Shown here in pieces: positions 26,901 through 32,900 of a DNA stretch of 64,000 nucleotides. Origin of the DNA: Tubulanus polymorphus. Taxonomy: Eukaryota; Nemertea; Palaeonemertea; Tubulaniformes; Tubulanidae. The stretch covers positions 6,322,278 through 6,386,277 of the forward strand of contig NC_134030.1 of the NCBI RefSeq assembly GCF_964204645.1, written 5' to 3'. Position 1 is the stretch's first letter; each line of letters begins with the position of its first letter. The position numbers and the translations under genes are program-made. The notes under the pieces are model-generated. The model made no database searches and was not told the origin of the DNA. It saw nothing but the letters and a program-made list of their open reading frames with translations.

Positions 26901-29900
26901 TGAACATTGAGATAAATTTTTCGATGTAATAGGCAGCAGAATTTTCTGATCCGTATCTCGCACTTTAATCTAATCGGTCCCAATTTGTCCAAGTTATGCG
27001 AGGTTTAACTGTATGTGATAATTTGTTGGATCATGGAAGAAGTCTTGTTTGTAGATGATTGCCCGAGATATTGAACATGGAACTGCGTGCTCTTACAGTA
27101 CGATGCACACTCAATGAGGGCTCTGTCGATTCTTAGAGACATACCATAGATCTGCACGAATTTTTGTCTAATCATCGGAGCCACGCGATGAGAAAGAACA
27201 TCGTCGTCAAATCATAAACTACCGTGTCAAACGCGTTTAACAAATCATTGCCACCGAATTGAATCGTTTTCGAATAAACTCGTCATAAAACTTTCTTCCT
27301 ATCTGCTCGGCAGGTCACGTAAAAATCACGGCAACCAATTTCCTTTAAGCTAACGAAACAAGCTCGGTCGATGAGGTTTACAAATTGTCTGAAATACGTG
27401 CTAAGAGCCGACAAGTATGTATGTTCGTATAAAAACATCGGATTTCTGTTTAATGAATTTGGAAATCGACGTCGAGTTTTTCCTGTCGAGCGGAATTCAT
27501 CGCACGTATCGAGGATAACTTATCTGAACGGCTGATCGTAGCTTTCCGCGCAAATGAAGTTAAATAGCCCATTTTCGTCCGGCCTTTTTTCGATCGAAAC
27601 GTCGTCGAACAACCGCACCGTCGCATACGTATATTGTATAGATATATTTAGTTGTTTCCCTATCGCTGAACGGTCGGTGTTCGTTGAAAGCTATCAATTA
27701 CAACAAGCTCGCAGGAACCCCATCGCAGTGCAAGCGTCACATCAGCGGTATCTTATTGTTTTAAAACGTGTTTGGAATTACACGTTTCCATTGCCGGGTT
27801 GTGATTTCTCAGTCAAATAATACACATGACAATAATATATCTATCGCAAATTGATACTGTTTCTGTAACTGATTTCCCAAGCGCTTCAGAGATAACTGTC
27901 GCAGATTGGTGATTTTACTGAGAGTTCTCAGAGTGCAACGAAGCCTTCACCCAAATACTGCAGGTTCGAGAGTTCACTGCTCGAAAGCTCGCCAAATTTC
28001 AATATAAAACCTCGTCCATTTTACAAATGCGGAGATTGTGGAAGAGAGCGAGTTAGTTTGACTAAGTATGTGCTGGAATAGAAATTTTCAATTTAGTGGC
28101 CAGAGAGTGTAGAAAAATATGCGAAGCATCTATGAAGACAACGAGTCAGTAATCATGCCAAACATTGAAACCGCAAAACGTCTTAGTTACATCAATCTCT
28201 GTGATTGGGTTAAGCGATCTGCAAATATGAACTTGAGACGTGTTTGACAAGAAAATTGTCAGAATTATAAAACCAATCAACGTCGGACACAAAACCCCCG
28301 ACGAAAACACGTCTGGACCGAAACTCAATTAGGGTTCGAAACGCTCGTGGTTTATGGCATTCGAGTGATCAGGTTCGTGTTGCAATCTCGCCTCGTTCAC
28401 GGATAAACTATCTAATCAGGTTTACGGATGTCCGATCGGTCGAGCAATTAGGACGGAGCTAGCGCTAGCGTCTCGCAATGTGGAAACGTCTAACCCATAA
28501 ACTTAACTTTATCGTCAGCCCATGAAAATTTAATCAAGATGTAGCTTTTTGAGACCAAAACAGTCTTAATAAACCAGATTTAACTACAGAACCTCTGGAC
28601 TAAACTGATAACTGATAAACGGCACCAGGACCGAACGGGTTCAATGTCATCAAGTTCAATAGCAAGTTCTAATTTACTTAGAAAATATCTACAAAGAAAT
28701 AGAAAGAAAAAACACCAATATTGGTCTGTTTAATTAAGAGGAAAATATGATCCCAGTATAATATATGGCTTTAATATAATCATATTTTGGACCGTGGAAA
28801 TGACTCCAATCGACATGGTTGTATATATTAATGAGTTTTGTCGAAATCGTCCTAAAAAACTCATTTCATTTCGATATTCAAAGACGACCATTGATCCCAG
28901 ACAGGAATCAATTAAAAGCAAAACTAGCAAACCTGCCACGACGAGTTTCATCATTCAGTGTTTGTTGTTACGTATTATCTGCGGGAATGCTTCCGCGATG
29001 AAATGGGAAAAATCGACACGGAATTCGTTTCACTTTTGTCAACGACGCTTCATCAAACACTCGTTCGTCAAGAGAAAATTGCCTCGTTTTTATTCCAATT
29101 ATCGAACGAGGCTTACCGACGAATCTGTAGCGTCTTTAAAAAATATCCCTTTTCAATGAGAGTGAAATGGGATTGGAAAACGACGAAATTCCCCTCGCCC
29201 GCTTTTTGCCGACGTCGTTTTAATCCTGGCGCGGTTCCGCAGAAACCGAGATACGCGGTAAAGCGTATTCCTCGGGAGAGTAAACTATCTTAAAGAATTC
29301 GCGACGCATTGAATCGTGGCTAAATACATCCCAATTGTCACATCGTATTACGCGTATTAAGTCTTTTGAAACCTACATCATCCGAAAGGCTTTAAGATAG
29401 TCGGCCATTAAAGACGGATGCCTCGTCATTTTGAAAAACAGATTACGTCGAAATGATCACGACGTACGTAAGAAAGGAGAAAAAAGCGGATCAATTCGTC
29501 GCGGCACCAGCGGCGGCATTGAACGCGGTCGATACTGATTGAATGATTGGACAGAGAGCGACGTGTAAAAAATAATCATCAAGCTAAATAAACTGACATC
29601 GCCTGCGCAGAATAAACGCGCGTGATAGTTAATCAGCTCGATATAGAACCGTACACTGGTGACCGAGAAAAAAATAGAGTACGTCTGAATAGCGGGTTCT
29701 ATAGTTAATTGGATCAGGGAAGTGTGATGAGATGGAATACGGACGCTTTTAATTGCCGGATGTAGGCTATTCAATTCAGCCCGTACATCAAAGGTTACCG
29801 CAACAGCAGTAAGCTACGCTTATCGAGTGTGTGTTACCAGCTGAACACCAGTCAACATCAACTTTGATTCGGTCGCAGAACAACCCGCAATAGTTTTAGC

Positions 29901-32900
29901 CCGATAAATGTTCTGCGATCGATACTACGCATGCGCACTGCAGTTCATTGAACCACGTGGAAGTGGCTGTGTATAAACATATTTTTCTTTAGAAAATCGG
30001 TTGAAATTCAACAATTTCTCGTAAAATTTGTCCAAAAAGGTATGTATTTTTATTCTTCTATATCTCCGAAACCCGGAATCGGAACATTAAGTGTTTATAT
30101 TGTGATTAAAGTCTGTTTTTATGTGTTAAACATATGTTTTTGCCAGTTCGTTCCGATTCCGGGTTTAGCGTTATTTGGGCATTGAAGATGTCAAATATTT
30201 CGGCCCAGACTCGCGCAGCTTTCGTTTCTGACGTCATGTTGCTATGTTACGACACAGACATATACATGAAGTATGATCTTTAAAATGTGTATTTACTACA
30301 TAATAATGTTACTTAATAACGCTTACATTAGGCCTACAAATTATTGTCCCCCATATAAACCAAGTTGCCTAAATAGCATCAGCAATCTCATTTAATTAAC
30401 CTTTTCTTGTTTTTAGTCATGGATCTTTGTCGATTGTGTGGAAAAAATGCGAAACCTCCGGATCGTCGTCCTATCGATAAAAATAATTTCAAAAGCCATG
30501 TGAAGGAGTTGTTCAACATTGATTTTGATGATGATACTGAACAGTACCCGATATATATCTGTAATATGTGTCGTGTCAAATTACAAAAATGGCGTAAGAA
30601 CAAAAACGTTAAAAAAACTGTCCCTGTGACTATCACAACATGAAACTTTGCCCACATTTTATCCAAATCTTTCGCAGTGCTTATGTGAATGGCGGAACAT
30701 AATGTATCTTGAATTTTTGTAAACCACTGGTTAATTCCAAGTCTGGACGGCGACGTATTTGTAGTCAAAGTTTTATCGATCGATTTTCCATTATGTACTG
30801 CTGCCATTCCATTTGAACTGAATTTAAATACTCGATGGTTAATCACTTCAGTCATAGCCTTTTCCAAATATATAGTGTTCCTGCGAAAATAATAATAATG
30901 ATTATTATTTTAACATGTACTTATCTGGATTTTTTATATTATGTTTATATATTATTTTCTGTATTCGTTTATTATTTTATAACCTAAAAGGATTGTATTG
31001 ATTATAAAAATAAATGTAAAAAATACCTGTATGTGTGTTTTCTCGTGTTCAGATCGCAGTCTCTGGTCAGCTGAGCCTGAGAAGTACCTATATGAAAAAG
31101 AAAAGGAAAGAATAAAGTGCCTGCAATTAGGTGGAAACTATTCCGATATTACATTGATTCAAAAGGAATAACACTCACTAGAATCGGCCGAATTAGTTGA
31201 TCCTGATCCAGAGGATTCCCGTAATATTTCCGTATCGATCTGAACCAATTCGTCACTATCAAAGAATAGTTCGTCAAAATCGTCATCATTTATAATTTCG
31301 TTGACAACCGTTGCCATTTTAATACAGCGGAAAGAACCGATATCACGATTGATAAAACACTATATCCGTCTGAAGCGATGTAGAGAGAATCGCACAATGA
31401 TAACGAAAAAGTCCAAAAATGTTAGTAGTTTATTCAACGTTTCGTCTATGTCCTAATAGTCATCTTCAGAAATAATGAATACTACAGAAATTATGAGAGA
31501 TATATACAATCCAGAGACAAAGAGACTAATTCAAGTAATCAGAGATGATACAAACTAAAGGAAAATTAACGTAGAAACAGTTACACGCTAAAACAGATTA
31601 AAGAGAAGCAGTTAAGAGACAGACTAGGGGGCACTTAAATTTAAGACAATTGTGAATACAAGTTGATCGACTAAAATTGATGAGGGGAAATCAGGTGTTG
31701 AGTTTAACCAGTTTACAGAGGAATTTTTATATAAGTTTATTATGGGATGAAAAACCGATATTCGGAAACAACTGAATTATTACGGAGATTCCCGATCTCG
31801 CTGGTTATCGCTTATCGGCGCGTTACGTAACAAAGCGCTCGCCGACGAACCGTTATCGGCTTTAGGGCAATTACAACGCACATTCGACAAGAGCTGCACA
31901 ATAGCGTCCGTATTCCATCTCATCACACTTCCCTGATTGGATCGAGATGTCGATTAAGAGATTGGATTGGAAAAAATGGCCTGGCAATATGCCGTGGTGA
32001 AGAAGTCCGATTTAGTCGTTGGGGTTTTCGTAAATAGATTATAGAACTAAAGTGAACATTGCAGGCGTCGAGATCGGGGACACCCGTTTACGTGACTAAC
32101 TTAATTGTAAGTTCGGCACCGACCACCCCGGGCATTCTATCTGATCAAATCAGCTATTCAAAGCGATCCTCTAATCAAGGTTCTCAAGTATGGCGCTGTA
32201 CGACCATTACCAGCGGCGAAAACAAGGCAATCTGCTTAATTTGATTTCCTAGTGCAACAAATAGGAAACAAACGGTACAATCATTTTAATTTACGCATCT
32301 GACACTGTCGTGTAGGCCACGCCGTGTCGGAAATTGTGTTAGACGCAACTGCAAATGAGTTATTTACCCAAATTAAGTCGATTCCGTACCATCGAGAGCC
32401 GTTCAAGAAATTGGCTGGTACTCACAAAGAAAATGCTCCCTCGATTATCTTGTTTACAAGAGTAGCGGAAAAGCTTCTTGGCTTTGGTGGCCTGATTGGT
32501 GGAGGCTGGTTTCCAATTTAGTGAAGGATGACCGCTGTGAGTAAATAGCCCCGGGGATGAAGCGATCCTCACCGCCGGTATATATTTGCAAATACGGCTC
32601 GTTACGTATAAAGCCCCGTGACAAAAACTGCAGTAAACATAAAAGCAGTAATGGCTAAAACGAAGAGAGATGGCACGATAGAAGACTATCTTGATTTCCA
32701 AAACTAGTTTATTGCGCTGAGCTGAGTTTTGCACATGAAAGATATTTTGCGCAAAGTACACCTGCTCCAATAATTTTTCAGTTCAAAGGATGACAAAAAG
32801 TGCGGCTATGTCAGGTTTAACCCCGAATGCTGGTATTGGTCATAAATAAATTGATCGCGTGCAAAATGTTCTCTCTATCAATCTGGAAATCATATTAGCA

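Follow-up and report, generated by a model that had tools for sequence, protein, structure and literature searches.

A probable internally deleted P-type transposon with a ZAD/RAG1 N-terminal-class zinc domain in Tubulanus polymorphus

The window, that is, the whole 64,000-nucleotide stretch of Tubulanus polymorphus DNA that was analysed, very probably contains a non-autonomous P-type transposon copy formed by a 3.6-kb deletion within a longer element. Gene 1 of the long element encodes a P-type transposase with an N-terminal zinc domain of the ZAD/RAG1 N-terminal class in the THAP position, and gene 2 runs convergent to it, with a PHD-finger exon ahead of it in lineage C. The deletion left both ends, the leader with a candidate intron, and the zinc-domain exon. 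Under the model that we favour, transposase from long copies would move the window copy in trans, giving the 7-bp duplications, and the zinc domain would most likely aid the transposase in recognising or pairing the transposon ends, by analogy with THAP.

The element and its long relatives

The sequence-only reading had described a class II element of 2221 bp with perfect 33-bp terminal inverted repeats (TIRs), a 7-bp target-site duplication (TSD) and a 74-aa CxxC...CxxC protein, all of which we found again in the sequence. The features, in window positions, are as follows.

29715..31935, + strand: 2221-bp non-autonomous P-type DNA transposon of lineage A, shortened by an internal deletion of class A1; from the TIRs, the TSD and the map to long copy L039
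29708..29714, unstranded: left 7-bp target-site duplication, ATTGGAT; from the flank sequence
31936..31942, unstranded: right 7-bp target-site duplication, ATTGGAT; from the flank sequence
29715..29747, + strand: left TIR, 33 bp, perfect, CAGGGAAGTG...; from the sequence and genome-wide pattern matches
31903..31935, − strand: right TIR, 33 bp; perfect match to the left TIR over 33 bp
30040..30416, + strand: candidate intron 5' of the zinc ORF, GTATGT...TTTTTAG; from splice-like signals, the acceptor being present in L038 too
30419..30643, + strand: 74-aa ORF with a CxxC...CxxC zinc domain (zf-AD/RAG1-NTD type); from Pfam, profiles and genome copies
30633..30635, unstranded: deletion junction, where 909-4511 of long copy L039 (3.6 kb) are gone; from the map to L039
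30636..30880, − strand: remnant of convergent gene 2 (start of a long exon, the rest deleted); exon edge placed from a splice-like signal only
31166..31317, − strand: presumed first coding exon of gene 2, a candidate, acidic; frame differs in L038

For the same TIRs a repeat finder gave 38 nt at 97%, because it extends into the duplication and beyond the first mismatch. The window copy corresponds to positions 1-908 plus 4512-5910 of L039, and its 74-aa ORF is the start of the transposase exon, cut off by the deletion. The zinc domain had been read as standing alone with its own upstream intron; it does stand alone, but only through the deletion, which took the catalytic part along with the rest of the 3.6 kb, and the splice-like signals (GTATGT at 30040, TTTTTAG ending at 30416) fit the claimed intron, which stays a candidate. 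In a region of tandem repeats near 5360-5650, the window copy also differs from L039.

Three long copies of lineage A share these TIRs (L037, L038 and L039; 5.5-5.9 kb); they are near-identical, and two have an open transposase stretch of 613 aa. These copies encode a P-type transposase, in which the zinc domain takes the THAP position of P elements. In Pfam, TNP-like_RNaseH_N scores 93.1 bits against a cut-off of 24.6 (E 2.4e-26), accompanied by sub-cut-off matches to HTH (20.7/23), GBD (15.2/24.8) and RNaseH_C (21.9/24). The former family is far over its cut-off in all of lineages A, B and C, and RNaseH_C is over its own in B and C. The PDB match of the long-copy transposase is Drosophila P transposase (6p5a, E 1.8e-7). 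The acidic motifs in lineage A are FDEMK, SDGA and QDPLE: both aspartates of the catalytic D, D, E set align to 6p5a, and the third acid, in QDPLE within the RNaseH_C match, is placed by motif and not by residue-by-residue alignment (the residue numbers of P transposase are those in the relevant part of PMC7776569). The core of the P superfamily is present in the long-copy transposase; the window copy itself is without it.

Pfam finds no THAP in the 613-aa frame. Elsewhere in the genome, two other P-like transposases (C7:12739985 and C4:15487254) have a THAP match just upstream on their own strand. Of the 124 THAP matches in the genome, we compared 121 with the places of the zinc domain, three on small contigs being omitted, and none of the 121 fell inside a located element. 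Two came within 7 kb of a domain place, one of them 4.6 kb outside a lineage A element and the other on the opposite strand from a nearby match to the domain that is weak and partial.

The genome (268 Mb) holds many copies of the family. When up to 3 mismatches were allowed, a TIR pattern of 32 bp matched 58 times on the forward and 58 times on the reverse strand, and the same pattern read backwards matched 0 and 0 times, so the pattern is not a product of chance. The TIR search of the host genome suggested from the sequence alone did yield further copies, long transposase-bearing ones included. A TIR pair was found at 35 of 36 scanned loci, L053 having one TIR only, and an exact 7-bp TSD surrounds 33 of the 35 paired loci. 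These rows include repeats (L068 is L003, L074 is L007 and L075 is L008); counted as distinct elements, 30 of 32 have the exact TSD, the misses being L038 and L063. A single insertion that was later duplicated may account for both L042 and L043.

The long element of lineage A carries a second gene, convergent to the transposase, which matches no family in Pfam and gives no more than weak matches in the PDB. This layout is common to lineages B and C. In lineage C the TIRs are perfect over 42 bp and the TSD, as in copy L048, is 7 bp long, and an ING-type PHD finger exon lies ahead of gene 2. Scans of viral contigs found no relative, whether the query was the transposase or the domain profile.

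With Drosophila P and vertebrate THAP9 (Pdre2) the element shares a P-type transposase (its RNase H matched well, its HTH and GTP-binding insertion more weakly), TIRs of about 31 bp, and internally deleted non-autonomous copies. It differs in having a ZAD/RAG1-NTD-type zinc domain and no THAP, in its second convergent gene, and in a TSD of 7 bp as opposed to the 8 bp given for P elements of Drosophila and zebrafish in parts of PMC10983969 and PMC7776569.

Deletion classes and the short copies

Among 34 distinct copies examined, 10 belong to class A1, 20 to class A2, 3 are long and 1 is of another kind. The A2 deletion removes about 927-4596 of the long element and also spares the zinc domain. 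Because each class retains a piece absent from the other, neither A1 nor A2 is a further-deleted descendant of the other. As regards the subterminal internal inverted repeats of canonical P elements, a 15-bp inverted pair, about 145 bp and about 400 bp from the ends, is present in 3 of the 34 copies, the long ones only; in the other 31, no right-hand copy of the repeat with fewer than 5 mismatches was found.

The chances are evenly balanced that the deletion copies are inert passengers, with their ORFs of 74-110 aa being functionless by-products of gap repair. Internal deletion is routine among DNA transposons, the dN/dS-like ratio of A2 is 0.72 with few changes, and 7 of the 20 A2 copies have no intact domain. 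Against this stand two separate deletions with breakpoints 18 bp apart, 36-54 bp past the last zf-AD-matched residue, and the fact that both classes became common. The domain is intact in 21 of the 30 deletion copies, 9 failing a strict test, a proportion to be read with the sample in mind: domain-less copies are under-represented because the copies were partly chosen by searches for the zinc domain. The A1 ORF of 74 aa has 3 substitutions per 2159 cells as compared to 97 per 19809 in its flanks (the odd copy L053 being excluded from selection counts), so that selection on this ORF is only hinted at by the sequence comparison.

Drosophila KP, a P element with a deletion, encodes a repressor of 207 aa, and the short copies resemble it in retaining both ends and the N-terminal domain while losing the catalytic part. 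They differ in the kind of N-terminal domain and in the length of the encoded protein, 74 or up to 110 aa, and the likeness is one of anatomy. By this analogy the stand-alone 74-aa form might act as KP does, occupying ends or poisoning multimers, which we consider possible, although somewhat short of probable. According to PMC7776569, repressors are frequent products of small P elements that are non-autonomous, a further point against inert passengers. Divergence in the A2 downstream segment is high (770/24075 cells) and was left unused because its alignment is uncertain.

The zinc domain between RAG1 and ZAD

In Pfam, the window protein matches zf-AD at 31.9 bits against a cut-off of 28 and no RAG1 family; in lineages B and C zf-AD stays under the cut-off (22.8 and 21.7 bits). 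RAG1_imp_bd matches no element protein, and a genome search with PF12560 gave no match, its controls giving none as well. Profiles bring RAG1 into view. When all PDB chains were searched, the sole match at E<0.01 was the mouse RAG1 NTD (21wb_A), both with the A+B+C profile (E 6e-4) and with the B+C profile (E 2.6e-4). All three RAG1 sequences occupy ranks 1-3 of the B+C search, the two full-length ones reaching only E 0.41, and with A+B+C these two, which have the same domain, are unlisted up to E 10. Taken one at a time, the aligned stretches do not reach significance (best i-E 0.056 for A+B+C and 0.019 for B+C), and RAG1 is absent from the PDB matches when single sequences are the queries. 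Used as a genome query, the RAG1 NTD found nothing relevant, its one chance-level match (E 1.13) lying in what looks like a transporter gene.

These observations bear on a simpler reading, under which a P-type element recruited a plain ZAD and the likeness to RAG1 is at superfamily level, silent on the origin of V(D)J recombination. We hold this to be a serious but less probable account. It agrees with the zf-AD score of the window protein, and Grauzone ZAD scores slightly above RAG1 with the lineage-A-only and A+B profiles; moreover, the RAG1 NTD itself touches zf-AD (E 0.0075), so the two may form one superfamily. However, RAG1 comes out ahead with the B, C, B+C and A+C profiles, hhalign gives 93.5% for the RAG1 NTD as against 1.5% for Grauzone (the sole ZAD structure compared), and the A+B+C and B+C searches of the PDB list no ZAD chain at E<=10. 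None of 20,000 cysteine-fixed RAG1 shuffles reached the score; with lineage A alone 735/20000 did, and with A+B 53/20000. A third cysteine pair common to lineage C and RAG1 is only suggestive, as 149 of 5000 shuffles reach it. The resemblance to RAG1 is real but modest; it leans on lineages B and C and is weak for lineage A alone. The RAG1 likeness first proposed for the window protein therefore holds as a measurable link through the A+B+C and B+C profiles, but lineage A by itself does not separate RAG1 from ZAD, and the caveat that the domain might score only with generic ZAD proteins applies in part, and to that lineage alone.

The RAG1 NTD corresponds to the 'Chapa' domain of Chapaev/TransibSU, which, according to PMC4411706 (2015), was in no known transposable element outside the Transib/Chapaev group. 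Our domain shares its CRxCG...ID/V...P...CxxC pattern, with a shorter stretch between the cysteine pairs and a third CxxC suggestively present in lineage C only, and it is accompanied by neither a Transib-type core nor a match to a RING family. It also differs from insect zf-AD/ZAD proteins, whose Pfam family it matches, in lying outside a C2H2 zinc-finger protein. A P-type carrier would show that the RAG1-NTD module crossed transposase superfamilies, and deletion in such an element would be a simple source of transposons consisting only of a RAG1-N-terminus-like gene. RAG2 bears a PHD finger. A bolder proposal, which we rate as unlikely, is that a P-type lineage holds a RAG-like toolkit of two genes, one for a transposase with a RAG1-type NTD and one for a convergent partner (ING-type PHD in lineage C, cf. 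RAG2). The RAG1 NTD would then be a module that passes among transposase superfamilies unrelated to one another. Stand-alone 'N-RAG' elements could in that case be P-type internal-deletion derivatives, not a separate class. One such is N-RAG-TP of Aplysia, likened here by its description, in PMC8355894, as a transposon consisting of a RAG1-N-terminus-like sequence. The near-identical long copies, two with the open 613-aa stretch, make the role of the domain in recognising ends, and that of the partner with the PHD, directly testable.

Class of the element and its host setting

A RAG-like (Transib/ProtoRAG/Chapaev) transposon or relic, as the sequence-only reading had hinted, is highly improbable despite the RAG1-NTD-like domain and termini that start with CA, given that the long-copy transposase makes the carrier P-type, the TSD is 7 bp and not 5, and no Transib/RAG1 core family is among the Pfam matches of the long-copy proteins; membership of the RAG/Transib/Chapaev group is ruled out by the P-type core together with that TSD.

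The chance that the zinc ORF is a host gene or exonised domain is close to nil: the element does sit between two exons of a GPCR gene, but the ORF is on the opposite strand, lies within the TIRs and TSD, and recurs at tens of loci. The genome zf-AD search, which lists best candidates only, missed lineage C, and weak host ZADs could be missed likewise. Of the 50 zf-AD matches listed, 48 are at places of lineage A/B domain copies and just 2, both weak, lie elsewhere, which speaks against the earlier concern about a host gene. A host ZAD gene was likewise not supported, and all 35 listed matches above cut-off fall at copies of the transposon domain.

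The transposon and its long copies

The sequence-only reading had placed a transposon with perfect ends in the window:

29715-31935: transposon (window copy) with perfect 33-bp terminal inverted repeats (TIRs)

The TIRs and the ATTGGAT found on either side bear out the coordinates and lengths given there. In the 268-Mb genome, a 32-bp TIR core with up to three mismatches had 58 forward and 58 reverse matches, and the reversed pattern, used as a control, had none. The TIR pair was present at 35 of 36 scanned loci, and an exact 7-bp duplication surrounded 33 of these 35 (30 of 32 once three repeated loci were removed). 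The genome search with the TIR that had been proposed for finding longer copies and a transposase yielded both, namely, three copies of 5.5-5.9 kb that encode a P-type transposase (gene 1) and a convergent second gene (gene 2):

L037, contig C4: 5511 bp; compared with the other two long copies, its gene 2 lacks about 390 bp
L038, contig C6: 5910 bp
L039, contig C8: 5910 bp

In all three, the zinc domain of the window copy is the start of gene 1, which is open for 613 aa in L037 and L038 and stops after 388 aa in L039. Gene 1 of the long copies matches Pfam TNP-like_RNaseH_N at 93.1 bits, with weaker matches, below the cut-off, to the P-element HTH, GTP-binding and RNaseH_C families, and in PDB, only the Drosophila P transposase matches it at E 1 or below. 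The acidic catalytic motifs are present in the window family (lineage A) and in lineage C (loci L047/L048), as well as in lineage B (L040/L041) within the pieces read.

Several features of individual copies were also observed. The flanks of L038:704-6613 differ between the two sides, with no target-site duplication (TSD), which suggests rearrangement or recombination between copies. Two 181-bp miniature elements with the same TIRs, L042 and L043, lie about 35 kb apart on contig C5. With one flank inverted, most of the few adjoining bases that were compared agree, which suggests a single insertion that was duplicated later. Each of the three long copies also has a subterminal pair of 15-bp inverted sequences, which lie roughly 145 bp and 400 bp inward of the termini; the right-hand member had no close match in the 31 other copies examined.

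In an alignment with L039, the window copy covers positions 1-908 and 4512-5910. The missing stretch of about 3.6 kb holds the catalytic domain and the greater part of gene 2, and the deletion junction falls within the final codons of the 74-aa zinc ORF. Thus, the zinc domain does stand alone in the window copy, as had been claimed, but as a result of internal deletion: in the long copies, it opens the P-type transposase. Another deletion class, A2, consists of copies of about 2150 bp that are without approximately 927-4596; in one of these, L064, the zinc domain is retained in an ORF of 110 aa. Because A2 and the class of the window copy, A1, each retain a piece missing from the other, they represent separate deletions. 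Among the 34 distinct copies examined, many of them at loci chosen through searches for this zinc domain, there were 10 A1, 20 A2, 3 long copies and 1 other, and under a strict test, the domain was intact in 24 (A1, 8/10; A2, 13/20; long, 3/3; other, 0/1). The protein search for the domain gave 75 matches in total, some of which are pieces of one copy.

Affinity of the zinc domain

By Pfam, the zinc domain is zf-AD (31.9 bits against a cut-off of 28), and the mouse RAG1 N-terminal domain (NTD) itself touches zf-AD at E 0.0075. Of the 50 best zf-AD matches listed for the genome, 48 coincide with lineage A or B domain copies; this list of best candidates missed lineage C. When the whole PDB was compared with a profile built from lineages A, B and C, the top match was the RAG1 NTD (21wb_A, E 6e-4), followed by ubiquitin hydrolases at E 0.025 and above; neither ZAD proteins (up to E 10) nor the two full-length RAG1 sequences of PDB appeared among the matches. 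With the B+C profile, three RAG1 sequences were the first three of four matches up to E 10 (2.6e-4 for 21wb and 0.41 for the full-length sequences). Hhalign gave 93.5% for the RAG1 NTD versus 1.5% for the ZAD of Grauzone, the insect comparator, and cysteine-fixed shuffles reached the real score in 0 of 20000 cases for RAG1 and 328 of 20000 for Grauzone.

The resemblance to the RAG1 N-terminus claimed from the window copy therefore holds for the A+B+C and B+C profiles, but lineage A alone does not favor RAG1 (shuffles reaching the score: RAG1, 735/20000; Grauzone, 242/20000), and neither does A+B (53/20000 and 18/20000, respectively). The RAG1 signal comes from B (2 shuffles of 20000) and chiefly from C (0). 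Searches of PDB with single zinc-domain sequences and of the genome with RAG1 found nothing relevant, and none of the element proteins matched the Pfam RAG1 family. We read these sequence comparisons as pointing to a single superfamily that takes in ZAD and the RAG1 NTD, with lineage C closer to RAG1.

The second gene, mobility and possible repression

The convergent gene 2 has a conserved region common to all three lineages, with identity of 44% between A and B (over the B piece of L041) and 27% between A and C. In lineage C, it is accompanied by an additional exon:

L048, 1632-7236: lineage C element with perfect 42-bp TIRs and TSD ATACAAC
L048, 6759-7046, minus strand: PHD finger of the ING type inside this P-type transposon, in an exon that lies upstream of gene 2 and shares its strand

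The PHD finger resembles those of the ING family, with E 6.5e-6 to png2, but scores under the Pfam PHD cut-off (15.8/24). Splice-like signals in the one copy read make this exon a candidate for joining to gene 2. No PHD was found in the lineage A frames read, where the putative first exon of gene 2 is acidic.

Judging from the anatomy of the elements, the P-type transposase would act in trans, cutting and pasting copies that have both ends. A Pfam scan of gene 1 in the long copies detected no THAP domain, whose role the zinc domain presumably fills; THAP matches lie close upstream of P-like genes, on the same strand, at C4:15487254 and, as a partial match, at C7:12739985. THAP and 8-bp duplications are features of Drosophila and zebrafish P elements (PMC10983969, PMC7776569), whereas the present family has neither. 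As of 2015, the RAG1-type NTD was unknown in other transposable elements, according to PMC4411706. Searches of the open literature turned up no P-type element carrying this zinc domain; an earlier description may exist, for instance in Repbase or subscription papers.

Repressors are frequently encoded by P elements of small size, one example being KP, a deleted Drosophila P element (PMC7776569). Retention of the domain through two separate deletions fits, and would be consistent with, a repressor role. Direct evidence of selection on the zinc ORF from sequence changes is weak: changed cells numbered 3/2159 in the A1 domain versus 97/19809 in the flanks, and 33/4310 in the A2 domain versus 141/14054 in the 5' part. 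The distinct changes in the A2 domain comprised 19 nonsynonymous and 6 synonymous ones.

Insertion site and surroundings

The transposon lies between two exons, with the zinc ORF on the opposite strand:

23262-24326, minus strand: amine-type GPCR exon (7tm_1), best PDB match D2 dopamine receptor
41643-42197, minus strand: amine-type GPCR exon (7tm_1)

Hence, it is probably located inside an intron of an amine-type GPCR gene. Elsewhere in the window, 13237-18130 (plus strand) contains five look-alike frames of about 195-240 aa, with VWA domains in both frames scanned (13237-13947 and 17531-18127), and long TA/AT dinucleotide arrays occupy 7686-8047 (181 copies) and 21740-21970 (115.5 copies).
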